A stretch of DNA of 35,988 bases from a virus: IMG/VR virus record IMGVR_UViG_3300025898_000024, positions 1 through 35,988 of that record, one strand, 5' to 3'. The notes below the pieces were generated by a model. It worked only from the letters and a program-made list of their open reading frames with translations. It was not told where the DNA came from and ran no database searches. Shown here in pieces: positions 2,066 to 35,562 of the stretch. The stretch's first letter is position 1; the number at the start of each line of letters is the position of its first letter. A program made the translations under genes and the position numbers.

Positions 2066-2349
2066 CCGAACTGAAGCAGCATATCCCGCCGTTCTTCGAC
2101 GGATTCGAGCCAAAACTGGAACGCATCGAAACCGCGGCCGATCTCGATGGCGTCGACTGGCTGCAATCCTGGCGCAGACATCCGGATTTTTACCGCTTCA
2201 GCGTCTCGCGCGAGGCGGGCCGCATGAAACTGCTGATGGCCGAGTTCGAGAAGGGCCGGAAGTGGTACGTGGTGGGAATCCTCAGCAACGATTTGCCGGA
2301 CCTTCCTGCGTGGGTTGCTAAGGACGGCGCCTCTCCCAGTCTGCAATAA
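2062..2349 (+). CDS. Phage protein of unknown function, 95 residues
   Basis: I place the start at the ATG at 2062, which overlaps the previous TGA (ATGA); an earlier in-frame ATG at 1963 would run through the 48-residue gene. The product (MTELKQHIPPFFDGFEPKLER and onward) is charged and soluble, with a motif SREAGRMKLLMAEFEKG followed by a WYVVGIL strand. No family recognised. Last gene of the rightward early cluster; its end overlaps the last gene of the leftward block tail-to-tail by 32 bases. Confidence 0.7.
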   Translation: MTELKQHIPPFFDGFEPKLERIETAADLDGVDWLQSWRRHPDFYRFSVSREAGRMKLLMAEFEKGRKWYVVGILSNDLPDLPAWVAKDGASPSLQ

Positions 2350-2653
2350 CGGCCGCTTCGATCAAGCGGTTTCGATCGCGCTGATACTGCATGTTCCGAT
2401 TCATCGTGTACGAACCCTTCGAGTTGACAGCCCATAGCAGAGCGATCGCGCATGACCACCACTGGCGGAAAAAGGCTAACGCGATCGCCGCGGCGAGATT
2501 GAGGGCCAGCAAGCCAACCATCACGCGGGCGGCAATGCGCAGATCGCGATCGTAGGTCATTTTCACGCCGATGACGATCACCGCGCCCAGATCGAACCCC
2601 AACAGGCCGAAGATCAGGTGGGCGGTAATCCTCAAATCGCGATCGTAGCTCAT
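2318..2653 (-). CDS. Membrane protein with internal tandem duplication, 111 residues
   Basis: Residues 1-31 and 32-62 are two copies of the same unit: a polar head M(S/T)YDRDLRI(T/A)A, then a membrane span. The duplication is also visible in DNA with a 93-base period, and each unit begins with ATG, so the second copy (ATG at 2560) is an alternative start. A third hydrophobic stretch (SCAIALLWAV) and a charged tail (MQYQRDRNRLIEAA) follow. Last gene of the eleven-gene leftward block, coupled to its upstream neighbour by ATGA. Function unknown; holin or exclusion roles are possible but unsupported. Confidence 0.7.
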   Translation of the reverse strand: MSYDRDLRITAHLIFGLLGFDLGAVIVIGVKMTYDRDLRIAARVMVGLLALNLAAAIALAFFRQWWSCAIALLWAVNSKGSYTMNRNMQYQRDRNRLIEAAVIADWERRRP

Positions 2654-2976
2654 TTCGGCATGACCCAGTCATCGGGGCGTTGCGGGCCTTCGCGTTTGCC
2701 GGTAAGTCCCGCGCGGTATCGCCTGAAGTCCTGCAGCAATCCCGCGGCCTGCTGCTCGCCCGCGCCTACGTGTTCCATTACCCACTTGTAAATGAAGGCG
2801 TCCGTCTCGGCTGCTTCGGCCGCCTCAATCATCGCCCGGGCGTGGTCGCGGGCCTCAGCAACACTCATTTGCGCAATGACGGCCATTCCACGAATTAACT
2901 GAACGAAGGGCGCTCCCTCCCGGTTCACACCGCTCTGATGCCACAGGATGTCATCAGGGATTTTGTCATGGCTCAT
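2650..2976 (-). CDS. Early phage protein of unknown function, 108 residues
   Basis: ATG at 2976-2974 overlaps the TGA of the preceding gene, and its own TGA overlaps the next ATG. The product is soluble: an N-terminal part (MSHDKIPDDILWHQSG), a hydrophobic strand (VQLIRGMAVIAQM), then an alanine/glutamate-rich helix (ARDHARAMIEAAEAAE). No motif or family recognised. Gene placement in a tightly overlapping string and the high third-position GC support coding. Confidence 0.7.
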   Translation of the reverse strand: MSHDKIPDDILWHQSGVNREGAPFVQLIRGMAVIAQMSVAEARDHARAMIEAAEAAETDAFIYKWVMEHVGAGEQQAAGLLQDFRRYRAGLTGKREGPQRPDDWVMPK

Positions 2977-3452
2977 GTTTTCCCCGCCGATTGTTTTGCT
3001 ACCGCCTTGATGCGCCGCGACCCGGTGCGCGCGTCGATAATCAAGGCGGCCGCCCGCGACTTGCCGAGCAGATCCTCTAACGCGCCGATCGGCACGCTGG
3101 CCAGTTCGAGAAATTTCTCGATGCCGATCGCGTCGACCAGGCCGCGCATGCTACGCACCCGCCGCTCGCGTTCCCGGGCCGACAGGTGCAGCCGGTAGAG
3201 ATTCCCCTCGATGGTTCCATCGGCATCCGCCGGCATGCGGTCGAACCAGGATTTTATCGCCCGCTTCAGCGTCTCAAACCGGGCGACGTCTGGCGCGAAT
3301 AGCTGCATGCGCCGATCCAGTTCTCCGTATTCGTCGGCCATGCGCCGCTGCTCGCGATCGACAATCACGGCGAGTTCGGCCTTTGCGGGCGGGCCGCGGC
3401 GGGCGGGCGGCCGGACCGCACTTTCGGTTTGGCGGGCCGCAGGGCGTCTCAC
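2973..3452 (-). CDS. Early phage protein, helical, 159 residues
   Basis: The start is GTG at 3452-3450, overlapping the upstream TGA as GTGA. The first 25 residues are Arg/Pro-rich. The rest is predominantly charged helix (DREQRRMADEYGELDRRMQL, later SARERERRVRSMRGLVDA), ending with a basic tail. The composition suggests a coiled-coil or nucleic-acid-binding protein. I do not recognise a family. Its TGA overlaps the start of the next gene. Confidence 0.7.
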   Translation of the reverse strand: MRRPAARQTESAVRPPARRGPPAKAELAVIVDREQRRMADEYGELDRRMQLFAPDVARFETLKRAIKSWFDRMPADADGTIEGNLYRLHLSARERERRVRSMRGLVDAIGIEKFLELASVPIGALEDLLGKSRAAALIIDARTGSRRIKAVAKQSAGKT

Positions 3453-4030
3453 TGCATCGTTTCCTTTTGCGCTCGCGCGAACATCCTTCGCGGGCGCCCA
3501 AAATAACCTTCAATTTCCGCTTCGCTCAAAAGCCGATTTTTTGCGCTGTCCGGTAGCACGGCACTCGGCGGTAAGTCCCCCACCGCGATAACACATTCAC
3601 CACCGGGAGAGATGCCCAGTTTGTGGCTCTGTTCCATTGCGTGCATGGGGCCGTGGGCTTCGATGAGCGCACCGCCTAAAAACTGTTCGTCATCGGCAAA
3701 ACTGAGCCAGAACCAGCGCAGCGGCTGGCGCAGTTCGTCGGTAAGGATCTGCGCGCGACGCGCTTTCCATGCTGGCGACCCAGGTTCCACAATCTCACTC
3801 ACCTTTCTGCGAAGCTGTTCCACCGTAACCCCGCATTCCTCGGCGGCGCGGAGTTCCATCTTTCGCATTGCCTCTTCCTCAGCCAGACGCTCGGCGGTTG
3901 TCGACTGCCAACCCTCGCAGTAGTCCTCCCCGCAATCGCAGGGCGCGACGATCCGCCCGAGTTCGCGCAACCGCTCCACCGTGATACCGCTGTCCTCGGC
4001 GTATTTGCGTTCAAATTCTTCCGCAGTCAT
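3449..4030 (-). CDS. Early phage protein with internal helical repeat, 193 residues
   Basis: I choose the ATG at 4030-4028 because it overlaps the TGA of the MerR-type gene (ATGA); an in-frame ATG at 4105 would run into that gene. The N-terminal half holds two related segments, SGITVERLRELGRIVAP (about residues 14-30) and CGVTVEQLRRKVSEIVEP (about 65-82), the first followed by CDCGEDYC, a possible metal site. The C-terminal half has a conserved-looking sandwich (RWFWLSFADDEQFLGGALIE, then HGPMHAMEQSHKLGI), a pattern I associate with uncharacterised phage proteins. Function unknown. Confidence 0.7.
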   Translation of the reverse strand: MTAEEFERKYAEDSGITVERLRELGRIVAPCDCGEDYCEGWQSTTAERLAEEEAMRKMELRAAEECGVTVEQLRRKVSEIVEPGSPAWKARRAQILTDELRQPLRWFWLSFADDEQFLGGALIEAHGPMHAMEQSHKLGISPGGECVIAVGDLPPSAVLPDSAKNRLLSEAEIEGYFGRPRRMFARAQKETMQ

Positions 4031-11613: not shown

Positions 11614-13806
11614 GTGGCAACTAGTAAGGCCGACAAAGATCTGATCGCAACCGCAAAGGGGCGATACGAACTCGCCGAAGAGGCCGAGCGCCACATTCGG
11701 CGAGAGGCGATTATTGATCTCGAATTCGCCGCGGGCCAGCAGTGGGACCCGAACGACCTCAACCAGCGCAACGCAATGGGCATGGGCAACCGGCGGCCGT
11801 GCCTCACGTTCAACAAACTGACCGGGCCAATCAACCAGGTCGCGAACCAGGCGCGCATGAATAAGCCGGACCTGGAAGTGCTACCGGCCGACCTTTCAGG
11901 CGATGTCGATACCGCCGAAGTCATCGAGGGCATGATTCGCCAAATCGAGTACGCATCGAAGGCCGACCAGGTTTACGAAACCTCCCTGGATCAGAGCACC
12001 AAGGGCGGTTTCGGCTATTTCAAAGTCACCACGCGGTACTGCGGCAACAAGACCTTCAACCAGGAATTGCGCATCGAGCGGGTGGTAAACCAGTTCGCGA
12101 TTCTGATCGACCCGTACGCCAAAAAGGCCGACAAAAGCGACATGAAGTGGGCCTTTGAACTTGAGTGGATTCCACGCGATGAGTACAAAGACCAGTTTGG
12201 GGACACCGAAGTATCGAAGATGAATTTCTTCGACGGGGTGACCAACCCCGCGCCCAACTGGATCACCAAAGAGGGCGTGCTCATCGCCAATTATTGGTAC
12301 GTCGATATCGAAGTGAAAACGCTGGTTGGCATCAGGTGGCCGGACGGCGCCGAGACCAGCCAGTACCTGGAAGACCTCCCCGAACAAATGCCGCCCGGGG
12401 TCACGTTCGCGACCGATGAAAACGGCGACCGGCGGGAACGTGAGGACGAAATACGGCACGTCAAAATGTGCCGGATCAATGGCGTTGAGATTCTGGACGA
12501 AATCGAGTGGAAGGGGCAGTGGATACCGATTCTCGCCACGCTCGGCGAAGAGATGTACATCGAGAACACGCGCTACCTGTTCAGCCTGATCCGGTTCGCG
12601 CGCGACCCGCAGCGGCTGTATAACTTCTATCGCAGTTCCGAAGCCGAAACGGTCATGCTCGGGACCAAAGCGCCGTGGGTGGGCGTCAAGGGCGCCTTCC
12701 GCGATCCGCGGTGGGCAACGGCCAATGTCATCCCGTGGTCGTACCTCGAATACGAACCGCTCGATATCGCCGGGAATCCAGTACCGCCACCGCAGCGCAA
12801 CCTGGCCGAGCCGCCGATTCAGGCGCTTTCGATCGGCGCCTCACAGGCATCCGACGATATCAAAGCCACCACCAACGTCTATGATGCGTCGCTCGGGTCC
12901 ACGTCGAACGAAACCTCCGGTATCGCGATCCAGCGGCGCCAGGGGCAAATGGAGCTTTCGAACTTCCATTTTGTGGACAACCTGAACCGCGCGATCCTGC
13001 AATGCGGCGCGATCCTGGTCGACCTGATTCCGAAGATTTACGACACCGCGCGCGAGGTGCGGATTCTCGGCGCGGACATGACGGAAAAAATTGTCAAGGT
13101 AAACCAGCGGTACAGGGATGAGCAGAACATCGAGCGCTGTTACGACCTCCAAAACGGCCAGTACGACGTACGGCTGAAGATCGGGCCGACGTTCAAGAAC
13201 CAGCAGGAAAAGACGGAATCGCAACTGCTCGAACTCGCCCGCGTTTACCCGCCGCTGATGCAGATTGCCGGGGACGTCGTTTTTGACAATCTCAATTTCA
13301 ACGGCGCCGACAAGATCGCCGAGCGCTTGCGCCGCTCGATGCCGCCCGGGCTGGCCGATGACGGCGCCGACAAGAAACCGGCCGAAGTGCTGGCGCAGCA
13401 GAACCAGCAGCAGTCGCAGATGATCGACCAGTTAAGCGCTGCACTGAGTAAGGCGAATGACGATATCCGCGGCAAGCGCATCGAGGCGGAATCGAACGAG
13501 CGTATCGAGATCATGAAAATCGAATCGAGCGATCGGCAGGCCGCACTCGATTCGGACACCAGAATTCAAATCGAACGGATGAAGATTGCGGCCGCGGATA
13601 GCAGCATCACCGCGCAGGAAAACATCGCGTGGATGAAGGCCGAGATGGCCGCTTTGCAGATTCAGGTGGCACGCATGGCGACCGGAGCGGCCGCGGAATC
13701 CTCGATTCCGCCGCCCGTAGGGCCACCGATGCCGCCGCCCGGTTCTGAAGGGCCCGGGATGCTGGCGGGCGCACCTGCAGGGCCGGTGCCGCAGGGAATG
13801 GCGTGA
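11614..13806 (+). CDS. Portal protein, P22 type, 730 residues
   Basis: Forms the dodecameric DNA gate at one capsid vertex, binding terminase then the tail. The N-terminal part (GRYELAEEAERHIRREAIID, FAAGQQW) and the core (NKLTGPINQVANQARMNKP, TKGGFGYFKVTTRY, SNETSGIAIQRRQ) match the P22-like portal family, and the length is near P22's 725. The C-terminal region from about residue 590 is a long coiled coil (AALSKANDDIRGKRIEAESN and beyond) like the P22 portal barrel, ending in a Pro/Gly tail. I place the start at GTG 11614 because upstream codons read antisense to another gene. No ribosome site is visible; TATAAA lies four bases upstream. The stop overlaps the methyltransferase start (GTGA). 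Confidence 0.92.
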   Translation: MATSKADKDLIATAKGRYELAEEAERHIRREAIIDLEFAAGQQWDPNDLNQRNAMGMGNRRPCLTFNKLTGPINQVANQARMNKPDLEVLPADLSGDVDTAEVIEGMIRQIEYASKADQVYETSLDQSTKGGFGYFKVTTRYCGNKTFNQELRIERVVNQFAILIDPYAKKADKSDMKWAFELEWIPRDEYKDQFGDTEVSKMNFFDGVTNPAPNWITKEGVLIANYWYVDIEVKTLVGIRWPDGAETSQYLEDLPEQMPPGVTFATDENGDRREREDEIRHVKMCRINGVEILDEIEWKGQWIPILATLGEEMYIENTRYLFSLIRFARDPQRLYNFYRSSEAETVMLGTKAPWVGVKGAFRDPRWATANVIPWSYLEYEPLDIAGNPVPPPQRNLAEPPIQALSIGASQASDDIKATTNVYDASLGSTSNETSGIAIQRRQGQMELSNFHFVDNLNRAILQCGAILVDLIPKIYDTAREVRILGADMTEKIVKVNQRYRDEQNIERCYDLQNGQYDVRLKIGPTFKNQQEKTESQLLELARVYPPLMQIAGDVVFDNLNFNGADKIAERLRRSMPPGLADDGADKKPAEVLAQQNQQQSQMIDQLSAALSKANDDIRGKRIEAESNERIEIMKIESSDRQAALDSDTRIQIERMKIAAADSSITAQENIAWMKAEMAALQIQVARMATGAAAESSIPPPVGPPMPPPGSEGPGMLAGAPAGPVPQGMA

Positions 13807-15251
13807 CCTATGGAAGCCTGTTCACCGGGATCGGCGGCATTGATCTCGGTTTGGACCGTGCGGGCTTCCGGTGCCGGTGGCAGGTGGAGAACGACCCCTA
13901 CGCGGTCAAGGTCCTCGAAAAACACTGGCCCGGTGTAAAGCGATATGGCGACATTCGCTGCGTTACAGGAGACGAACTCGGCTCCGTCGATCTCATCTGC
14001 GGCGGATTCCCCTGCCAGGATCTCTCCCAGGCCGGAAAGCAGGCCGGTATCGAGGGAACTCGCAGCGGTCTTTGGTTTGAATACGCCCGGTTGGTTCGGG
14101 AACTTCGACCTCGATACGTGCTCATTGAGAACGTCGCAGGGCTCCTTGTTTACGACGCAATGCGACGAGTTATCGGCGAACTGGCCGGACTCGGGTATGT
14201 GGGATGCTGGCGCAGTTTACGAGCTAGCGAGTTCGGAGCCAGTCACCTCCGAAAGCGCGTCTTCATCGTGGCCTACGCCGCGAACAACGGACACGCAGAG
14301 CGGGCGCGGGGTAGCGGAGATCAACGGAGCATTCTACCGTCCGAGTCACTGGCTGGAGGAAGGGAAACTCCTGGGTCAGGCGAACCTGAGCGATGTAGCG
14401 GAATACTGGCCCACGGCCCGTGCGGAGGACTCGGAGAGTTGCGGGAACCATCCGGGGGCAACGGACTCGCTGACGGGTGCCAGTCGCAACTGGCCGACAC
14501 CGCAGGCGCACGATCAGCGGGGAGCGAAGACCCCGGAACAGATAGCGGCCGCGCGGGAGCGGACGGGCGCGGGAGTCTCGAATCTGAACGAAGCCGCGGA
14601 CCTCTGGCGCACGCCCGATACGCCGGCATCAGGCGGGCCGCGCAATCGCCAGACCTCGATAGGCAACGGCCACCAGATCACGATAGCGGAGCAGGCCGAA
14701 CACTGGCAGACCCCGGGAACGGACTCCTTCCGCAGCAGGGGAGGGGACCGGAAGGACGAGATGGGTCTCGACCAGGAGGCGCGGACCTGGTTCCCGACAC
14801 CGGCAGCACGCGACTACCGGACGCCGAACGCGAAGCCCTATACGGAGCGGGGCGGGGGGTCGAAGGGCGAACAGCTTCAGAACTTCGTGGAGCACCTTTG
14901 GCCGACTCCGAACGCGAACCCCTCAGCACCGAACAATTCGACCGACAGGGGGAACGGCCGCATTTCCGCACGCCTGACGGATCAGTGTCTCGAATCGCGG
15001 GCGGAATCCCTCGTTTCGCGCCAGGTCCCAGTGATCCCCGATGGCCCGCCATCCTCGCAGAGTGGCCAGACCTCGCGCCGGCGCTTGAATCCCCAATTCG
15101 TGGAATGGCTGATGGGGTTCCCGATTGGATGGACCGCGCGATGACCAACCGCACCAAACGTCTCGGCCGCCTCGGCAATGCCGTGGTCCCGCAAATCGCG
15201 GAATGGCTCGGATTACGAATTCTCGATTTTGATTTATGTCTGAAGAAGTAG
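13803..15251 (+). CDS. dcm: DNA cytosine-5 methyltransferase, 482 residues
   Basis: Transfers methyl from S-adenosylmethionine to C5 of cytosine in a DNA target. Motif I is LFTGIGGIDLGLDRAGF, motif IV GGFPCQDLSQAG with catalytic C71, motif VI IENV (109-111 region), motif VIII near LRKRVFIVAY, and motif X near the C terminus (RLGNAVVPQIAEWLG). Between motifs VIII and X lies an unusually long variable region (about 160-410) of repeated LADT, LAHA, LADP and LADS elements, where the target-recognition domain should be. Likely protects phage DNA from host restriction. Start GTG overlaps the portal stop; its end overlaps the scaffold start by 16 bases. A second long frame covers most of the gene. 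Confidence 0.9.
   Translation: MTYGSLFTGIGGIDLGLDRAGFRCRWQVENDPYAVKVLEKHWPGVKRYGDIRCVTGDELGSVDLICGGFPCQDLSQAGKQAGIEGTRSGLWFEYARLVRELRPRYVLIENVAGLLVYDAMRRVIGELAGLGYVGCWRSLRASEFGASHLRKRVFIVAYAANNGHAERARGSGDQRSILPSESLAGGRETPGSGEPERCSGILAHGPCGGLGELREPSGGNGLADGCQSQLADTAGARSAGSEDPGTDSGRAGADGRGSLESERSRGPLAHARYAGIRRAAQSPDLDRQRPPDHDSGAGRTLADPGNGLLPQQGRGPEGRDGSRPGGADLVPDTGSTRLPDAEREALYGAGRGVEGRTASELRGAPLADSEREPLSTEQFDRQGERPHFRTPDGSVSRIAGGIPRFAPGPSDPRWPAILAEWPDLAPALESPIRGMADGVPDWMDRAMTNRTKRLGRLGNAVVPQIAEWLGLRILDFDLCLKK
13945..15144 (+). CDS. Overlapping +1-frame ORF with WPTP repeats, up to 399 residues
   Basis: Nested in the methyltransferase gene, +1 frame, open for 1.2 kb. Its sequence is not random: from about residue 50 it reads LDTCSLRTSQGSLF, WPDSGMWDAGAVYEL, then seven W-P-T-P-like repeats (SWPTPRTTD, YWPTARAED, NWPTPQAHD, LWRTPDT, HWQTPGTD, WFPTPAARD, LWPTPNAN), ending LNPQFVEWLMGFPIGWT. 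I recall this pattern (TSQxSLF, PRSGM, WPTPxARD, LNPxFVEWLMGFPxGW) as a recurrent phage and bacterial protein type. Each WPTP here is the same DNA that reads LADT in the methyltransferase frame. The start is uncertain. It may be a true overlapping gene or a frame kept open by constraint on the enzyme. Confidence 0.5.
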   Translation: MATFAALQETNSAPSISSAADSPARISPRPESRPVSRELAAVFGLNTPGWFGNFDLDTCSLRTSQGSLFTTQCDELSANWPDSGMWDAGAVYELASSEPVTSESASSSWPTPRTTDTQSGRGVAEINGAFYRPSHWLEEGKLLGQANLSDVAEYWPTARAEDSESCGNHPGATDSLTGASRNWPTPQAHDQRGAKTPEQIAAARERTGAGVSNLNEAADLWRTPDTPASGGPRNRQTSIGNGHQITIAEQAEHWQTPGTDSFRSRGGDRKDEMGLDQEARTWFPTPAARDYRTPNAKPYTERGGGSKGEQLQNFVEHLWPTPNANPSAPNNSTDRGNGRISARLTDQCLESRAESLVSRQVPVIPDGPPSSQSGQTSRRRLNPQFVEWLMGFPIGWTAR

Positions 15252-27309: not shown

Positions 27310-28881
27310 ATGGCGATTGATCCATCTATTTCGCTGCAAGTACGGCCACCGGTAATTCCGGTTCCCGAGATCCAGAGTCCGCTGGATCGCTTCACTAAAG
27401 TGCTGACGCTCCAAAACCTGATGACGCAGGGGCAATCGGGGCAACTCGGATTGCAATCGCAGCAACTGCAATTGCAGGAGCGACAGAGGCAGATCGATGA
27501 AGAGGATAAACTGCGCCAACTTTATTCGACTAACCCGAACCCGACCCACGCTGACATCATTTCGACAATCGGTCCAACCCGCGCAATCCCTCTGATCAAA
27601 GCGCAAAGCGAGCAGTTACAGCAGTTTTATAAGACTGAGCAGGAACGAGCCGCAACGCTTGGTTCGCTGGCCGGATCAGCGACTGATAAAGATTCTGCGG
27701 TCCGCGCAGTTTGGGAAGGAATCAACCGCCGCGCTTTTGCTGCGGACCCCACTCAAAATGCCCAGATCGGCCGCCAATTGCTCGATCATCTGAACACCAA
27801 GGGATTCGATCCGGCGGAGTTCAAACAGTTCCAAGCGCAGGCGATGACCGCAGAGCAGCAGCACTCAGCCGCGCTGGCGGATTTGGAAGAAACGCGCAAA
27901 GCGACTCTCGCACCGTATCAACTCTCTGAAGCCCAATCGAAAGCGCGACAGTCTGCACTACAGGATGCGGGCCAGACCATCCAAACGCTTACCGATATGA
28001 AGAATTTTCCCGCGTGGCTCTCAAGACAACCCGCGGAAGCGCAGACGTATTTCCGGGGCCTTGAGAATATGCCACTGGCCGATGTCCAGCGGATTGTGGG
28101 CATGGCATCCACCGCGGCAAAACCCGGTGAGACGATTCCGCTACCGGCGGGCGTTCAGGAACAGAAGGTCGCACAACAGGCCGCGATCGGTCTTGCCACC
28201 GAGCAGGCGAAACAGGGATTCACGAACCAGAAAAACGAAGCGCTGGTTAACGCCGTGATGAATGACAAAAGCGGGGTTGTCTACGCGAATCTGCCGGGGG
28301 AACAACAGAGGGAAATTGCGCCGATCCTCGCGCAACGGGGTTGGACGCAGTTCGCCGCGAAGCCGTCCGATACCGAACTAACCAAGCTGCAGGACATCCA
28401 GAAAGCTCTCGGCATCGCCGGTAATCTCAAATCGACGCTGGAGAAAAACGCCGACCTCATCGGACCGGTAAGCGGCCGTCTCACTCAGTTGCCGTATGCG
28501 ACCGAACGGAAAAAACTGCAGGCCGACATCGACCTGGCGCGCCAGATCATCGGCAAGGGATTAGAGGGCGGGGTTCTGCGGAAGGAAGACGAGGAGAAAT
28601 ATAAAAATATTCTCCCAACGATGATCGATACGCCGGAAGTGGCGCAGAGCAAACTAAGCAAGCTGCAAGAACTCCTGACGCGCGATCTCGGCACCTACCG
28701 GCAGAGTCTGACGGGCGCAGGGCGGCAACTCCCTCCCGCGGCCGCGCAGCCAGCGCAACCGGCGGCGCCGCCGAAAGTCGGCGATATCATCCCCGGCAAG
28801 GCCGGTCAAAACTATATGTTCATCGGTGGCGACCCCAACGACCGGAATAATTACAAAGTCTGGACGCCGGTAACACGCTAA
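27310..28881 (+). CDS. Second ejection-type virion protein, 523 residues
   Basis: ATG 27310 with GAGG seven bases upstream is preferred to an earlier in-frame ATG inside the previous gene. The protein is almost wholly helical and Gln/Ala-rich (LGLQSQQLQLQERQRQIDEE, later LATEQAKQGFTNQKNEALVN), with little hydrophobic surface and a Pro/Ala hinge near the C terminus (about 475-490). It sits where P22 encodes gp20. No specific domain recognised. Stop TAA shares one base with the next ATG (TAATG). Confidence 0.7.
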   Translation: MAIDPSISLQVRPPVIPVPEIQSPLDRFTKVLTLQNLMTQGQSGQLGLQSQQLQLQERQRQIDEEDKLRQLYSTNPNPTHADIISTIGPTRAIPLIKAQSEQLQQFYKTEQERAATLGSLAGSATDKDSAVRAVWEGINRRAFAADPTQNAQIGRQLLDHLNTKGFDPAEFKQFQAQAMTAEQQHSAALADLEETRKATLAPYQLSEAQSKARQSALQDAGQTIQTLTDMKNFPAWLSRQPAEAQTYFRGLENMPLADVQRIVGMASTAAKPGETIPLPAGVQEQKVAQQAAIGLATEQAKQGFTNQKNEALVNAVMNDKSGVVYANLPGEQQREIAPILAQRGWTQFAAKPSDTELTKLQDIQKALGIAGNLKSTLEKNADLIGPVSGRLTQLPYATERKKLQADIDLARQIIGKGLEGGVLRKEDEEKYKNILPTMIDTPEVAQSKLSKLQELLTRDLGTYRQSLTGAGRQLPPAAAQPAQPAAPPKVGDIIPGKAGQNYMFIGGDPNDRNNYKVWTPVTR

Positions 28882-31800
28882 TGCTCGACCAGGACCCGTG
28901 GGAACTCAACTATGCGCCCGCGGCGCCGCCGCCGCAGGCATCGACGGGATACACCGTCAAAGGTCTGCAGGGCAGCGAGCCGAAAATTCAACTCGGGCCC
29001 ATTCAGCGGGCGGCCGCTCCTGCAGCCGCTCCTGCAGCCGCTCCAGGCGTGGACCCGTGGGAACTCCCCTACCAATCGGCGCAGAAGCCGCCGGAACCCT
29101 CGCCGATCGCCAAAACTGCCAAAGCGTTTTGGGAGGGAATCGGCGGGCAGGCGCTCACCGATATGCTCGGCGGCGACTGGCGCGACCCGAAAGCAAATAA
29201 AAAAGCATTCGACACGGCCAAAGCGATCGTCAGCGGAATTGCCGCCGAACCGGGCCGGATGTGGGGTGAACTCTCGCGCACAGGCGAATCGATGCTCAAG
29301 GGCGATTTGAGCGGCACAGCCTTTCACCTAGCGGGCGCGGTTCCGTTTCTCGGCGCGCCAGCGCAGCAGGTGGGGATGGACGTCGATCGCGGCGACCCCG
29401 CGGCCGCGGTAGGGCATACGGCCGCTCTGGTTGTGCCGATGGTTGCGGGGCCACTGGCGGAAGCCACCGGACGCGCGACCGCCACCACCGGCACCGTAGC
29501 GCGTGGCGCCGCTACCGGATTAGTGAAGGCCATACCAACTGCCGCGACGGCCGCCGCCGAGCGATCGGTCTACGGCGCTTTAGGCGGGGTCGAAGGCATG
29601 ATTGCCGCGGCAAAGATCGCCGCCGGCAAGGAACTGGCGCAAGGCGCGATTACTGGCGCGCGTGGAGCGCTCGCCGATCGCGCCGCAGCCGCGGCCGCCG
29701 ACCTCGCCGCCCAACAGGCCGCACGCGAAGCCGCCGACGCTGCACTGGCCAGAGGGGCGAAGGTAACCGACGCGCAGGAAGCGATGGTTAACCCGCCGCG
29801 GCAACTACCGCCGGGGGGGATCATCACACCGGCACCAGCGGCCGAAAGTTTTGTACGCAGCGTTCCGGGGATGTATCCCACCGGGCCGAATCCAGCGCGA
29901 GCGCTGCCACCAGGACCCGCGCGTGTAATCGAGATGCCGGGGCCGGAAGCGCCGCCGAGTGGAATCGAAGTCACTCCGGCAATGCTCGATCAGATTGCCA
30001 GGGACCAGACCGGCAAGCCCTACAAGAAACTGAATGCGGTCGACCAGGCGAACGTGGTTGAGATCGCGCGACGTGTCAGCCAACCGCCGGAAGCGGCGCC
30101 GCCCGCCTCGACCGATACCAGCTTCGTTCAGAGCGTCCCCGCGCAACTCCCCGACATCATCCCGCAAAATTTGCGGACCAATGCGCCAGCGGAAGCGGCC
30201 GCGACCACACTACGCGACCAGATACAACCGGTCAAGGCGGCGACCGAAACAGCAGCCCCACGGGATTTTAAGGCGGGCGCTCAGGACGCGAAGGCCACCA
30301 TCTACGCGCAACAGTTCTTCGACCACAATTTGACATCCGCCGACGTTCAAGACCCCACGCATGGATTCAAAGAACAGCAATGGGTGGATCTAGCGAAGAA
30401 CTTTAAGCACGGGCCGCCGAGCGAAGTTACCCGGGCGATGACGCTGCAAAAACTCGATGCACTTTGGCAAGCCGAGCAGCCGGGACCGGCGACGGCCGCG
30501 CAAGGTAAAGCGGCATTCGAGCAGGCGAAAGCAACCGGAGCCGCTACAATAGAGCCAAATGCTAAAAGTACACCTGCCATCGGACAGACTTCCCGAAAAC
30601 CAACCGGAAGCACGGGGGCGCCGGTTTATGGACCGCGTGAACCAGTGGCGCCAGTCCAACGCGGCGCAGACGTCACCATCAGAGTCCCAGGCGAAACCAC
30701 AACCTACCAAGGACAGTACGCAGTCAGAGAGCTAGACGACGTTTACCCGAGTCACAACCCGCAGACCTTCCAGCAAAACCCCGACTACTATTTCAAGAAC
30801 GATCGCGATTACTCAAACCCCACCAACAAAGAACGGGTTGTAGTCAACAGCAAAGCCGACACGTTTGACCCCGCCTATCCTCTGGCCGACTCTCCCGACG
30901 CTACGCACGGGCCGCCCGTCATCGATCCCAACGGGAACGTACTCGGCGGCAACAATCGCGCGATGATCCTTGAACGGGTCTACAAGAACAACCCCACCGG
31001 GGCGGTCGCATACCGCGCCGAGCTTGCCCGCAGGGCGCCCGCGTTTGGCATCGATCCCGCGCAACTCGCCGGCATGAAGCGGCCGATACTGGTTCGCGAA
31101 CTCGCAGCGGCTGAAGGCGACCCACAGCGGGCAATCACCAATTTGAACAAGACCGGAACCGCCGCACTCACCGCGGCCGAGCGCGCCACCGCGGACGCGC
31201 GCACGATCACGCCAGCGGCCGCGGACTATCTCGCCAAGGCGATCGACACCGAAGGCGCCGACGCCACGCTAAACGATGTCCTCAGCGGAAAGAACGGCGC
31301 CGCGATCGTGAACAAGCTGGTTGACGATGGCGTTTTCACGATGCAGGAAAAACCGAATCTGGTCGACGCGCGCACGGGTTCGGTCACGGCCGCCGGCAAA
31401 GAGCGGATTTCGAAAATGCTACTCGGGCAGGTATTCGAAACCGCGGACCAATTGACCCGCACCCCTCCGGAGTTGCGCGCCAAACTGGAACGGGTTATTT
31501 CGCCCGTCCTGCAATCAGGCCAGAAAGCCGGATTCGATCTACTGCCCACGTTGCGCGAATCGATAAACCTACTCGAATACGCTCGCGCGCACGGTATTGG
31601 ACATTTGCCGGACGCAATCGCGCAGGAAAGCATATTCAGCGATGCGCCTAAATTCTCTCAGGCGGCCGTCGACCTGGCGCAGTTCCTACGCGACAGTAAA
31701 CCGAATGAGGTATCGAAGGCGTTTCGGCGATACGTCACCAACGCTGAGCCGACCATGTTCGGCAAGTCCACACCAGGCGAAGCATTCACCGACGCATTCG

Positions 31801-31898
31801 GCGGGAGTACACCGCCACCGGCAAACCTGCGCGAGTTGATGCCGGAACCGCCCGCGGCCGCGGCGCCACGCAAGCGGCGATCAAAACCCGTTCGCTAG
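28881..31898 (+). CDS. Large ejection-type protein with ddrB-like ParB domain, 1005 residues
   Basis: Last and largest gene of the late operon, in the P22 gp16 position. The N terminus has two DPWEL(N/P)Y boxes separated by an Ala/Pro linker, then Ala-rich helices (about 150-300). Residues about 580-800 hold a ddrB-type ParB-like domain: YAVRELDDVYPSHNPQTFQQ, then VVVNSKADTFDPAYPLADSP, GPPVIDPNGNVLGGNNRAMI. Such domains occur in very large phage proteins. The C terminus is helical and ends in a basic KRRSKPVR tail. Probably ejected with the genome; the ParB-like domain could act on incoming DNA (inference). A strong terminator follows. Confidence 0.75.
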   Translation: MLDQDPWELNYAPAAPPPQASTGYTVKGLQGSEPKIQLGPIQRAAAPAAAPAAAPGVDPWELPYQSAQKPPEPSPIAKTAKAFWEGIGGQALTDMLGGDWRDPKANKKAFDTAKAIVSGIAAEPGRMWGELSRTGESMLKGDLSGTAFHLAGAVPFLGAPAQQVGMDVDRGDPAAAVGHTAALVVPMVAGPLAEATGRATATTGTVARGAATGLVKAIPTAATAAAERSVYGALGGVEGMIAAAKIAAGKELAQGAITGARGALADRAAAAAADLAAQQAAREAADAALARGAKVTDAQEAMVNPPRQLPPGGIITPAPAAESFVRSVPGMYPTGPNPARALPPGPARVIEMPGPEAPPSGIEVTPAMLDQIARDQTGKPYKKLNAVDQANVVEIARRVSQPPEAAPPASTDTSFVQSVPAQLPDIIPQNLRTNAPAEAAATTLRDQIQPVKAATETAAPRDFKAGAQDAKATIYAQQFFDHNLTSADVQDPTHGFKEQQWVDLAKNFKHGPPSEVTRAMTLQKLDALWQAEQPGPATAAQGKAAFEQAKATGAATIEPNAKSTPAIGQTSRKPTGSTGAPVYGPREPVAPVQRGADVTIRVPGETTTYQGQYAVRELDDVYPSHNPQTFQQNPDYYFKNDRDYSNPTNKERVVVNSKADTFDPAYPLADSPDATHGPPVIDPNGNVLGGNNRAMILERVYKNNPTGAVAYRAELARRAPAFGIDPAQLAGMKRPILVRELAAAEGDPQRAITNLNKTGTAALTAAERATADARTITPAAADYLAKAIDTEGADATLNDVLSGKNGAAIVNKLVDDGVFTMQEKPNLVDARTGSVTAAGKERISKMLLGQVFETADQLTRTPPELRAKLERVISPVLQSGQKAGFDLLPTLRESINLLEYARAHGIGHLPDAIAQESIFSDAPKFSQAAVDLAQFLRDSKPNEVSKAFRRYVTNAEPTMFGKSTPGEAFTDAFGGSTPPPANLRELMPEPPAAAAPRKRRSKPVR

Positions 31899-31984
31899 TT
31901 CCTGCCCTTGACGCCGGTCTACGTCGGCCGCATACTTCCGCACAGACACATACCTCCGCGAAAATCGGTGGATTTCCTTTGTAC

Positions 31985-32021
31985 CCGGGACGCTGCACCT
32001 CGCAGGCGTCCCGGTTTTTTT
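31985..32021 (+). terminator. Intrinsic terminator of the late operon
   Basis: CCGGGACGC (31985-31993) pairs with GCGTCCCGG (32006-32014), with further pairing in the loop (TGC/GCA), followed directly by seven T (32015-32021). It lies about 90 bases after the last late gene and just before the convergent recombinase gene, so it ends late transcription and shields the integration module. Confidence 0.88.
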
Positions 32022-32034
32022 GCGTCTTGCGTCT

Positions 32035-32892
32035 TTATCCGACCAACGCTCGAATCAGGCGTGCAAGCTCCGGAGTCTTCCGGAACCATTCGCCATTGTC
32101 GCGGGCGCTCTCAAATTTTTGATGGAGCCATGACTCTGTTTCGCGCGAGGCCGGAAACGATCCGATAAGGCGAATGGCGAACGAACTTGGCCGCAATGTG
32201 CCCAACCCGGTGAAGCGCTGGCGCGGGCGTGTAGAGAAACCGATCTTCACGTGCTGGCCGTCTTCGGTTTCGACAAAGTACACATATCCGGACTCCGTTG
32301 GAAGTGATGGCGTGACACTGCGAGCCGCCACGCCTTCGAATTCCGACTGAAGAACTCTGGCATACGGTAAGGCGCTTTGCAGACTGGCATAGCCAAGTTT
32401 CAATTGGACGCTGACGAGTGATCGCGTCAACCGCAGCGTCTGAAGCGCGCACGTATGCTTCAGTGCGTGGAAGTGGGCCTTTTCCGGCGAGATTCCGGCA
32501 TTCTCGCAATATTTTTTCATCAGATCATCGAGGGTGTTGCGAGAAATAGCCGTTCTTCGTTGCGTGATGAAGAGCGGTCCAGCGTTGCGCCCGCGAACCC
32601 GAAGCCATTTTCGTAACGCTATCGTCGCCTCTGGGCCGAGCATTGCTTCGCCGCCGATTGATCCTTTCACCCGCTTCAGCACAATCCGGTCCGGACACAG
32701 GTGCGTCTTACCTGGGAAATAATCGCCAATATCGAGCAGTCCGATTTCGCTCGACCGCAAACCGTGATCCAACGCCAGATGCACAATAGCCTTGTCCCGC
32801 GCGTTCGCAATCGCCTTTAACAGCAGGGCGATTTCATCCGGCGTAAAGTGGTGCATCCTCTCAATTTGTTGATCGAGCAAACGCTCTTGCAT
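32035..32892 (-). CDS. Tyrosine recombinase fused to a T5orf172/GIY-YIG domain, 285 residues
   Basis: Residues about 15-190 are a tyrosine-recombinase catalytic domain without the usual core-binding domain: R46 (HGLRSSEI), K76 (RVKGSIGG), H142 and K145 (HALKHT, Lys where Arg is usual), Y168 in LGY (His is usual) and nucleophile Y177 (LPYARV). Residues 202-284 are a T5orf172/Mug113-type GIY-YIG domain: GYVYFV, VKIGFSTRPRQRF, E253 in RETESWLHQKF, and GEWF. I know no standard integrase with this tail. The paralogue at 32943-33599 is divergent, 50 bases away. The altered His suggests weakened catalysis; it could be an accessory factor or directionality control. Confidence 0.8.
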   Translation of the reverse strand: MQERLLDQQIERMHHFTPDEIALLLKAIANARDKAIVHLALDHGLRSSEIGLLDIGDYFPGKTHLCPDRIVLKRVKGSIGGEAMLGPEATIALRKWLRVRGRNAGPLFITQRRTAISRNTLDDLMKKYCENAGISPEKAHFHALKHTCALQTLRLTRSLVSVQLKLGYASLQSALPYARVLQSEFEGVAARSVTPSLPTESGYVYFVETEDGQHVKIGFSTRPRQRFTGLGTLRPSSFAIRLIGSFPASRETESWLHQKFESARDNGEWFRKTPELARLIRALVG

Positions 32893-32942
32893 AGCAAGTA
32901 TGATAGCGATTGAGAGACTGAAAATTCCGGAGACTTAACCCC
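32893..32942. promoter_or_regulatory. Divergent 50-base promoter region between the recombinases
   Basis: Both recombinase genes must be expressed from here or from within each other. TATGAT on the plus strand (near 32899) and its complement TATCAT-like stretch on the minus strand are possible minus-10 elements in opposite directions; no good minus-35 is seen for either. GGAG lies about 12 bases before the plus-strand ATG. Confidence 0.4.
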
Positions 32943-33599
32943 ATGATGCGTAAAAACATTGGGAAATTGAAGACTTCACAGACGCGAGAGGCTGGTAATC
33001 CGTATTATCAGACTCCCGAGCCTAAGCCCCAACAGCGCTATAAGTATCTGATAACAGAGGAGATAGAGGCGCTACTCGCCTGCATAACCAGTATGCGTGA
33101 TCGCGCGATATTCCGATTGGCCTATCAACACGGGTTGCGAGCAAGCGAGATTGGCAAAATCCAGATGACCGACTATAGACCTGGCAAATCAAAGGCCGCG
33201 GATCAGGACCGATTGGTTATCGAACGTCTGAAGGGCTCGATTGGCGGCGATACGCGCTTAGTTCCAGCCGCGGCCGTCGCCATTCGGCACTGGGTGAAGA
33301 AACGTGGATATACGCCGGGGCCGCTGTTCATCACGCGCGAGGGAACGCCGATCGGCCAGAGACAGCTTGACCGCCTGATGAAGCGGTATTGTCTGCGCGT
33401 CGGCATTCCACGCGAAAAGGCCCACTTTCACACGCTCAAACACACCTGCGGAACGATCATGCTTTCAGTGTTGAAAGAATCGGTTGCGCACGTTCAGGCG
33501 CACCTCGGCCATGCGGACATTCGCAGCACGATGGTTTATGCGAAGCTCACCGAGCAAGCGAACGAGGAGCGCGCAGCACGATTAAGGAATTGGAGATAG
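32943..33599 (+). CDS. int: Compact tyrosine recombinase (integrase), 218 residues
   Basis: Catalytic residues in order: R66 (HGLRASEI), K97 (RLKGSIGG), H163 and K166 (HTLKHT), H190 (HLGHADI), Y199 (MVYAKL). The HxxK form in place of HxxR also occurs in a recombinase subfamily I recall with the box H(V/M)LKHS. The protein has only about 35 residues before the catalytic domain, so it lacks a standard core-binding domain. It is colinear with the fused recombinase encoded opposite (shared KGSIGG, GPLFIT, HFHxLKHTC). Probable phage integrase or resolvase; two consecutive ATG codons leave the start uncertain by one residue. Confidence 0.87.
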   Translation: MMRKNIGKLKTSQTREAGNPYYQTPEPKPQQRYKYLITEEIEALLACITSMRDRAIFRLAYQHGLRASEIGKIQMTDYRPGKSKAADQDRLVIERLKGSIGGDTRLVPAAAVAIRHWVKKRGYTPGPLFITREGTPIGQRQLDRLMKRYCLRVGIPREKAHFHTLKHTCGTIMLSVLKESVAHVQAHLGHADIRSTMVYAKLTEQANEERAARLRNWR

Positions 33600-33784
33600 C
33601 CAACTCTGTTAATGTCCAGACTGTGCAGAGTCTCGGCATTGCCGAAATTGTGCGCGTTGCGCACCTCCCGTGCAACAGATGCAACACGAAACGGGCCAGA
33701 GAACACCTGTTTTGCGTCCGGACGCAATGATACCAGGGGTTCGGCGCACTAGCGGTTGCTGCGCATTTTAGCGGATAGGTAGAA
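33600..33784. other. Inverted-repeat-rich interval, candidate attachment region
   Basis: Directly downstream of the integrase stop lie three short hairpins in a row: AGACT/AGTCT (33618-33633), TCGGC/GCCGA (33633-33645), GTGCGC/GCGCAC (33650-33664). Two direct repeats TGCAACA follow (33671-33677, 33680-33686), then a perfect 16-base palindrome TTGCGTCCGGACGCAA (33712-33727). Such a set resembles arm and core sites of a recombinase attachment region; no tRNA end is recognised. A role in ending or regulating integrase mRNA is the alternative. Confidence 0.5.
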
Positions 33785-33793
33785 TTGCCTCAA

Positions 33794-34738
33794 ATGAGCA
33801 GTCTGCGATCCATCATTCAAAAGGGCCGGTTTTACGTTCCCGAATATTACGAGCAGGAACTCTTTGAGGCGTTCGCTATCTATACGAGCGCGGGCCTTCG
33901 CGATCCTCAAACGAAGTTAATTAACGCGCAGTCGGTCTGGAACGATACCGTAATGCCCCCACCCGAAAAGCGGGACGAGGATACCTGGAAGCGGTTGCTA
34001 AATTTTGAGGAGATTCCACGACCAAAACCGCCGTTTGAACGAGTCTGGCTGGAAGCGCTGATACCGTCGCAAGATGGATTCAATGCGCAACGAATTGGCG
34101 CGCTGATTTTGCGGATCGAGGGAACCGAAAATATCCTCCGCAGTTTTGCCAACGGGCGGACGATGCCGGAAGATGCCATGAGGCAGATTGAGATTGATCG
34201 CCCAACGACATTTGTAAATGCGCTGTTGATCCACGACTACAACGGTTCGGCTACTCCAACCGGCAATTGCATCTATTGGTTGAATGAAGACGGGCGGTTC
34301 TTGTGGTCTTTTAGAATGGCATCACTCGCACTCGCCGAAGAGGACGAGAAAGCCAAAAATCTCTGCTACGCCCAAATGCGTATGCGCCAGGGATGGATAC
34401 TCCACACATTCGCCCGATTGAACTGCGCCAATGCCAGACTTGTAGAGATTCCTGAGGGCCGGAACGGTCACCGCAGCCATCATAACCGGCCACCATCGAG
34501 CGTCTGGCATGAGATCAAGGTAAGCGACGCGCCGAAGATTCGCCGCGCTACGTCTTCCCGGGCGGCGGATAACGAATGCCCAATTCGTTTCCACTGGGTA
34601 CGCGGCCACTATGCGGACTACACCAAGGGTAAGGGCCTGTTCGGCAACCCGAAACTTCGGCAAGTGTTCTGGATTCCAGAGCATCAAGCGGGAGACGAAG
34701 AAGCGGGAACCGTGATGGCAAGCTACACGGTTAACTGA
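33794..34738 (+). CDS. Phage protein of unknown function with HWVRGHYADYT motif, 314 residues
   Basis: ATG at 33794 chosen; an in-frame TTG at 33785 with closer purine-rich sequence is possible. The N-terminal two thirds are soluble alpha/beta with no recognised motif (FYVPEYYEQELFEAFAIYTS). The C-terminal 80 residues show a pattern I recall from uncharacterised phage and mobile-element proteins: VWHEIKV, IRFHWVRGHYADYTKGKGLF, then a FWIPEHQAG end. The conserved His/Arg/Gly cluster suggests a binding or catalytic site but no reaction is known. It lies between the integrase and the convergent small-terminase-like gene; it may be lysogeny-related cargo. Confidence 0.7.
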   Translation: MSSLRSIIQKGRFYVPEYYEQELFEAFAIYTSAGLRDPQTKLINAQSVWNDTVMPPPEKRDEDTWKRLLNFEEIPRPKPPFERVWLEALIPSQDGFNAQRIGALILRIEGTENILRSFANGRTMPEDAMRQIEIDRPTTFVNALLIHDYNGSATPTGNCIYWLNEDGRFLWSFRMASLALAEEDEKAKNLCYAQMRMRQGWILHTFARLNCANARLVEIPEGRNGHRSHHNRPPSSVWHEIKVSDAPKIRRATSSRAADNECPIRFHWVRGHYADYTKGKGLFGNPKLRQVFWIPEHQAGDEEAGTVMASYTVN

Positions 34739-34769
34739 ATCCCACGTCTCCCGCTGCCTCACCCGGCCT

Positions 34770-35231
34770 TCATCCCGCCTTGTCGTCCTCTGCTTTTTTC
34801 ATCGCGACCAGGCGCGCGCGCGCCGCTTCCAGCCGCTCAACCAGGTTGATACTCCCGCTGTGTTCGACGGCCGTATGCTCGCGGTACAGCTTCGGCCGGA
34901 AGCGCTTCAGCAACACCACGGCCAGATTATTGTCGTACTCCGTCTCGTAGATGAGGTGTCCGCTTTTCGTCTTCATCGGCTTCCCGCGCCAATACAATTG
35001 ACGCTTGACGCCGTTCACGGCGCGATCAATGAGAACGTCCTCCAGTTCCTGGCCTACGCGATCCTGCAGAGCCTCGAACCGCTTGCGGTATTCGGGGTCC
35101 GAGTCCAGCTTGCGGTAGTGCATCGTGCGATCGATGCCAGCGGCCGCGGCCGCGGCTTTGACGTTGCCGGACGTCGCGTAGGCGTTGAGGAACACGCGAA
35201 TGCGTGACGGTTTCGCCGTCTTCTCGGGCAT
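34770..35231 (-). CDS. Terminase small subunit-like protein, 153 residues
   Basis: The N-terminal half has the small-terminase-like helix-turn-helix pattern: IRVFLNAYATSGNVKAAAAA, AGIDRTMHYRKLDSDPEYRK, followed by helix FEALQDRVGQELED and VLIDRAVNGVKRQLYWRGKP. The middle VLLKRFRPKLYREH fits the same family, where KALRPxxYRE is typical; the C-terminal helix is charged. It would recognise the packaging site and recruit the large subunit. It is unusual in being on the strand opposite to the large terminase and about 10 kb away in the circular map. Last gene of the leftward operon. Confidence 0.78.
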   Translation of the reverse strand: MPEKTAKPSRIRVFLNAYATSGNVKAAAAAAGIDRTMHYRKLDSDPEYRKRFEALQDRVGQELEDVLIDRAVNGVKRQLYWRGKPMKTKSGHLIYETEYDNNLAVVLLKRFRPKLYREHTAVEHSGSINLVERLEAARARLVAMKKAEDDKAG

Positions 35232-35243
35232 ATTGGTCTGATT

Positions 35244-35562
35244 CTACGCCGCGCCGCGGATTACGCGCACCTTGTTTTTGCTCGGCACGCTCAACCCGTA
35301 CGCAGTCGGATCGAAGTACTTCGTGAGTGGCATCGTGGGGTTTTTGCGCTGGATGCCGGTATGGTGGAACGATTCGCGCGCGTCGCGACCCTCGGGCGTG
35401 ATGTGGAAGCCGGCGGCCGGGTTTGTACGCGATCCAGCCGCGAATCAGCATCGACCGAAACGGCCGCTGGTCGTAGGATTGCGCTTGACCGATGCTCAGG
35501 TAGACACCGGATGCGAAGGTTTCGAGCATCGGAAACTGAAGGCTGCTCAGGCGGGTAATCAT
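35244..35562 (-). pseudogene. Frameshifted small winged-helix-like phage protein, about 105 residues when repaired
   Basis: The frame from ATG 35562 reads MITRLSSLQFPMLETFASGV, later PFRSMLIRGWIAYKPGR, then turns to low-complexity sequence. Moving one base at about 35411-35420 (a CCGGCGGCC run) restores GFHITPEGRDARESFHHTGI and MPLTKYFDPTAYGLSVPSKN to a TAG at 35244-35246, which matches a small phage protein type I recall (GFHxTxEGREAWxxF, PLTxYFDPxAYGL). So one extra base splits the gene. Causes: assembly error near the contig end, a real mutation, or a +1 programmed shift at the AAA-CCC-G codons. The start overlaps the preceding gene's stop (ATGA). Confidence 0.7.

Follow-up and report, generated by a model that had tools for sequence, protein, structure and literature searches.

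The DNA analysed here (the window) is the IMG/VR virus record IMGVR_UViG_3300025898_000024, 35,988 bases long with a G+C content of 60%. Judged by its gene set it is a P22-like podoviral contig: the closest matches of its large terminase (~49%) are to Vibrio phage 1.021.A, its portal matches PHROG 156 (E 7e-114), and the other P22-like genes encode a major head protein, a DNA-ejection protein and, at the right end, a small terminase. Elsewhere on the contig, a C5 DNA methylase gene (13803-15251, plus strand) shows a Pfam match to residues 1-161 only and a PHROG match that extends to residue 476, and may carry an insertion within the gene. The last gene of the late operon is followed by two divergent tyrosine recombinase genes, which precede the small terminase and have start codons 50 bp apart (Table 1); both are present as the earlier note had described them. 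The terminator-like hairpin that precedes them was missed by a hairpin scan with a loop limit of 8, and no match to a sigma-70-like promoter is present in the 50-bp intergenic region. The compact recombinase is separated from the small terminase by a gene for a 317-aa protein (33785-34738, plus strand) with a weak match to PHROG 20769, no match to which was noticed in the loci of relatives.

Table 1. Features of the recombinase locus in the window and of nuclease-bearing recombinase loci in related contigs (positions without a prefix are those of the window).
Feature	Position	Strand	Basis
Last gene of late operon, ddrB-ParB-domain protein	28881-31898		
Terminator-like hairpin GGGACGC-12 nt-GCGTCCC + T7, between late operon and fused gene	31987-32021	+	Read in sequence
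Fused gene, 285 aa, tyrosine-recombinase catalytic domain + T5orf172	32035-32892	-	ORF, Pfam, AlphaFold2
T5orf172/GIY-YIG domain of fused gene	32035-32301	-	Pfam, conserved residues
Divergent intergenic region, 50 bp between start codons	32893-32942		
Compact tyrosine recombinase, 218 aa	32943-33599	+	ORF, Pfam
Noncoding region 3' of compact recombinase	33600-33784		Alignment
Endonuclease VII-compact recombinase fusions	L125:2521-3549, L133:419-1474		Pfam, alignment to sisters
Truncated T5orf172 ORF, 36-codon stub	L127:3546-3653		ATGA overlap with recombinase stop

Neither protein has the N-terminal core-binding domain usual in tyrosine recombinases; both match the Phage_integrase family (PF00589; E 2e-21 over residues 16-181 of the fused protein and E 8e-24 for the compact one), and their recombinase parts are paralogous and colinear, with 44% identity. 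Within a single ORF, the minus-strand gene joins its recombinase part (residues ~1-191) through a linker (residues 193-198) to a C-terminal T5orf172/GIY-YIG domain (residues ~201-285), recognized by both T5orf172 (PF10544; E 2e-7, residues 202-275, above the cut-off) and MUG113 (PF13455; E 5e-7), the combined region spanning residues 202-278. The PADLOC match of this part, to a candidate family, is only weak. The earlier reading of the sequence, which had recognized the paralogy, the C-terminal T5orf172/MUG113 domain and a Tyr in place of the histidine of the LGH motif, was correct and is far above chance. The AlphaFold2 model of the fused protein, based on an alignment of 25 sequences, shows two well-folded domains (mean pLDDT 92) with a short low-confidence or disordered stretch at the linker only. 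Its recombinase half, the only part covered by the VIA-align and PDB structure lists, matches the folds of XerA, XerH and Cre (Z 18-20) and also the structures of YopR/MrpR and SroF (Z 12-14); with the T5orf172 profile as query, a sequence search of the PDB yielded no significant match.

The six catalytic positions of the fused protein are R46, K76, H142, K145, Y168 and Y177, and all but Y168 are kept. The Lys at the position of the second Arg (HxLKH instead of HxLRH) is a family trait, since it is shared by 10 of 15 compact relatives. Tyr168, by comparison, is peculiar to the fused protein: the corresponding His/Trp position is occupied by His in all 15 compact relatives and in four outgroup recombinases. 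The His-box region around it is altered as well (H165K, H168Y, T174A). Approximately 38 of the 54 columns that are invariant in the compact relatives are kept, a few of these columns lying in poorly aligned ends. The conservation of five catalytic positions at ~44% overall identity hints that strand-cleavage chemistry still matters. The T5orf172 half, for its part, has lost none of the residues (Y, K, G, R, E, H, G and W) that are constant across an alignment of six T5orf172 domains.

In a tree of 37 recombinases, the fused protein and its neighbour both belong to a compact clade of 14 members (support 95/95), in which the branch of the fused protein is 1.41 long (2.63 in the first tree) as against ~0.2-0.3 for neighbouring branches. 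Because it is nested in the compact clade on such a long branch, the fused recombinase is most simply explained as a duplicated, fast-evolving copy of the compact recombinase, although the tree gives it no firm sister and long branches are hard to place. The closest relative of the window, contig L002, carries an intact compact recombinase that is sister to the one described here (93/82). This contig begins at an equivalent terminator hairpin; beyond it, on the minus strand, come first the end of the fused gene and then its start. The start region retains 15 of 27 identical residues (tblastn E 1e-6; none of 2,000 shuffles was equally good), and the end reads ELAALIAALLG-stop, compared with ELARLIRALVG-stop in the window (none of 20,000 shuffles was equally good). 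The two ends differ by four synonymous codon changes, TAA/TAG and three replacements, a pattern expected of coding sequence. Some 240 middle codons are absent and the two pieces are in different frames, which makes the L002 gene a pseudogene; what survives is a recombinase-type start and a T5orf172-type end, and not the whole T5orf172 domain. To judge from these remnants, an ancestor or close relative once had a gene with such a start and end, which L002 has lost by internal deletion.

The presence of this frameshifted relic at the same place in an independent contig rules out an assembly or deletion artefact as the source of the fusion, which is genuine. No such relic is visible upstream of the compact recombinase in the other relatives tested, so that the fused gene is intact in a single genome (the window), a relic in L002 and absent elsewhere among the relatives. 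Its gain and subsequent decay in L002 next to an intact neighbour is what a dispensable, selfish or accessory nuclease might be expected to show.

Relatives of the compact recombinase were recovered from ~42 viral contigs in three viral scans, and in the nearest of them the gene lies, as in the window, between the late operon and the small terminase. Outside the window, none of these contigs, several of which are short fragments, has an intact divergent recombinase beside the compact one (in L012, less than 200 bp upstream of it is available). L002 alone has the partner, as a relic, and there the compact recombinase is intact. The earlier suggestion of a two-component device that needs both recombinases, with the pair co-occurring in relatives, is not supported by this distribution, and an obligate pair of the XerC/XerD type is rejected on the same grounds, allowing for the short fragments among the contigs. 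What holds of the earlier interpretation is the in-frame fusion of a paralogous recombinase to a nuclease domain; the obligatory pair does not. Absence of co-occurrence in relatives, which the earlier note had named as a refuting outcome, is largely what was observed for the pair, and leaves the fusion standing. Cleavage-assisted action, another of the earlier proposals, may yet apply, as the compact recombinase itself carries an Endonuclease VII domain in two other phages. The arrangement resembles a chimeric 'selfish' nuclease more than it does a fixed recombination machine with two parts.

A second recombinase of ~310-440 aa, which looks like an ordinary integrase, is present in the long records G010, G011, G012, G015, G025, G029 and G030 and in others; none was found in the window, G016, G021, G023 or G024, records that are possibly incomplete. 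The compact enzyme would thus be the sole recombinase in some phages and a supplementary one in others. A full-length recombinase is convergent with the compact gene in L024 (3519-4583, minus strand) and L141 (2525-3541, minus strand), and L114 (1589-2545, plus strand), L115 (1527-2480, plus strand) and L117 (2021-2983, minus strand) hold a second, full-length tyrosine recombinase of phages that have the compact one too; the window lacks such a second gene. A scan of genome contigs with the compact recombinase as query returned one distant recombinase only, which leaves room for a fused copy in bacterial genomes. Compact tyrosine recombinases of the FimB/FimE type consist of a catalytic domain of ~200 aa with no core-binding domain. 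The window recombinases share this lack of a core-binding domain but are phage-borne, and no invertible segment is seen nearby: inverted repeats in 31800-35300 are short and imperfect, and none flanks a plausible invertible segment.

The noncoding DNA 3' of the compact recombinase can be aligned in 12 phages (the window and 11 relatives) and contains a hairpin of the GTGCGC..GCGCAC type and a tandem repeat, GCAACAGATGCAACA; it is possibly a recombination, protein-binding or terminase site. The units of the tandem repeat seem to change together between phages (GATGCGACA twice in one case, GTGTCTACA twice in another). On the same side of the gene in L135, the last ~27 bp of the recombinase gene (3523-3549) are repeated ~400 bp downstream (3955-3984, 24 of 30 positions identical), and the repeats flank small inserted ORFs, making the 3' end of the recombinase gene an insertion hot spot. 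L002 has a separate, intact T5orf172 gene (2212-3021, minus strand) beyond the small terminase, 1.3 kb past the recombinase.

Nucleases of a second family are joined to the compact recombinase in other phages. An Endonuclease VII domain (PF02945; E 1e-15 and 1e-19) is fused in-frame to the N terminus of the recombinase in L125, which stems from the same record as L022, and in L133. In both contigs the corresponding ~520-590 bp are inserted at one and the same point of the N-terminal coding tail, and the flanks on either side match the sister contigs L135 and L127, where the site is empty; in L133 the severed original N terminus of the recombinase can still be read upstream. The Endonuclease VII parts of the two contigs are 59% identical and the junction is open in both. 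In the tree, the empty L135 groups with the occupied L133, followed by the empty L127, a branching which implies repeated gain or loss of the cassette. Since the fusion affects the only compact recombinase of L125 and L133, a nuclease fusion can coexist with recombinase function. The T5orf172 stub that overlaps the recombinase stop in L127 shares 14 of 25 residues with the window domain and lies inside a ~430-bp segment lacking in L133. Patterns of presence and absence, relics, clean insertions with empty alleles and the involvement of two mobile nuclease families all indicate, at the level of sequence comparison, that the compact recombinase gene acts as a hot spot at which nuclease modules (T5orf172 and Endonuclease VII) are acquired, a clean insertion with empty alleles being seen only for the Endonuclease VII cassette of L125 and L133 and not for the fused gene. 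T5orf172 and Endonuclease VII-motif proteins both belong to phage homing-endonuclease families (PMC10448857, PMC6083498).

The closest functional parallel is Odn (ICP1 gp88), in which a T5orf172 domain is joined to a copied satellite RepA_N DNA-binding domain and cuts the satellite origin (PMC8263062). As in Odn, the T5orf172 domain of the fused protein is C-terminal to a copied domain, here one that would read a DNA site, and its conserved Arg and Glu are present. The two differ in that the putative reader here is a tyrosine-recombinase catalytic domain that keeps most catalytic residues and stems from the phage's own recombinase family, and in that Odn cuts a satellite, whereas cutting by the fused protein is predicted and the analysis found no satellite or target for it. 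Phage T5orf172 homing endonucleases (PMC10448857) share the nuclease family, patchy presence, decay and an adjoining conserved gene, but mostly carry zinc-finger CapR, DUF723 or DUF4397 DNA-binding domains instead of a recombinase. The Endonuclease VII cassette of the relatives resembles homing endonucleases with the Endonuclease VII motif (DHHRN), for example F-CphI (PMC6083498), in being a one-site cassette in two phages with empty sisters, but is fused in-frame to a recombinase, its homing being putative. The recombinase fold is also reused in a phage protein in the MrpR/YopR repressors (PMC10516654); the fused protein differs from these in its extra nuclease domain and in retaining most active-site residues, and is not assigned to this type, which is marked by the loss of catalytic residues.

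Searches of 50,697 phage and 72,556 plasmid records turned up no locus that matches the fused protein over 80% of its length, none of the 58 distinct ORFs (76 viral loci) that contain a related T5orf172 domain is fused to a recombinase, and in the viral structure library none of the matches listed clearly holds both halves. A tblastn match to a Paraburkholderia plasmid over 78% of the query proved to be a recombinase trio without T5orf172. Among the publications that the literature searches listed, seen mostly through titles and abstracts, none describes a tyrosine recombinase-T5orf172 fusion. The parts are thus known, and their combination is new to us relative to the phage, plasmid and viral collections searched.

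Several explanations of the fused gene can be weighed against these data. The compact and fused proteins might form a heteromeric, XerC/XerD-like recombinase acting on two half-sites, with the T5orf172 domain replacing the C-terminal tail and steering the order or direction of strand exchange. The divergent genes, 50 bp apart and 44% identical as in two-recombinase systems, the five retained catalytic positions and the attachment of T5orf172 where recombinases have their C-terminal tail in the alignment all suit such a complex, which is nevertheless unlikely in view of the altered His-box region, the loss of the partner in L002 and the lack of an intact divergent partner in all other contigs. 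It is quite improbable, too, that the attached nuclease is a built-in resolvase for Holliday junctions or single-strand exchanges made by the compact recombinase. Two unrelated nuclease families attached to one recombinase family, and an Endonuclease VII-recombinase ORF kept open with 59% identity between its nuclease parts, are consistent with this role; most family members have no attached nuclease, however, the nearest sisters carry empty alleles, one nuclease is N-terminal and the other C-terminal, and the window fusion is on an extra recombinase copy. A wider form of the idea deserves as little confidence: that the compact-type clade repeatedly recruits branched-DNA nucleases (T5orf172 at the C terminus, Endonuclease VII at the N terminus), making one-protein machines whose recombinase would start strand exchange and whose nuclease would cut or resolve the product.

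The fused paralogue might instead be a decoy or repressor that binds the site of the compact recombinase or a shared promoter and regulates it in the manner of MrpR/YopR. This accords with the YopR/MrpR and SroF structure matches, the divergent gene pair, the altered His box and the MrpR precedent (PMC10516654), yet MrpR has lost most catalytic residues while the fused protein keeps five of six, and repression does not need an intact GIY-YIG motif; the probability of this reading is decidedly small. An accidental, non-functional fusion heading for decay, which the long branch and the pseudogene in L002 would allow, is very improbable for a gene with 858 bp free of stops and frameshifts, two intact domains with conserved active-site residues and a confident predicted fold.

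The reading preferred here, by analogy with Odn and homing endonucleases and with a likelihood approaching but still short of even, is that the minus-strand gene encodes a chimeric site-directed nuclease, targeted by means of a duplicated recombinase. The recombinase half falls within the clade of compact recombinases, and this fast-evolving second copy would supply DNA-site recognition and perhaps a nick, with the C-terminal T5orf172 domain doing the cutting. By analogy with Odn, the recombinase half would bring the nuclease to the recombination sites of related phages; co-infecting relatives are the likely targets, at their recombination site or recombinase locus. The outcome would be homing-type spread of the gene, an advantage for its phage over competitors through their exclusion, or both. 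The compact recombinase would act alone, and the window gene would represent a case where the nuclease took along a copy of the recombinase. No candidate target site, satellite or empty-site cut for the fused nuclease was found in this analysis.

The compact recombinase itself merits attention, as some phages have it in addition to a distinct, full-length recombinase that resembles integrases. With two empty and two occupied Endonuclease VII alleles and the relic in L002, the way in which such chimeras come and go is open to direct test. If the preferred reading is true, what was once a site-specific recombinase now directs a nuclease to its target, in a natural counterpart of engineered recombinase/nuclease fusions, and domain shuffling would have provided phages with a second route, besides Odn, to sequence-directed weapons.
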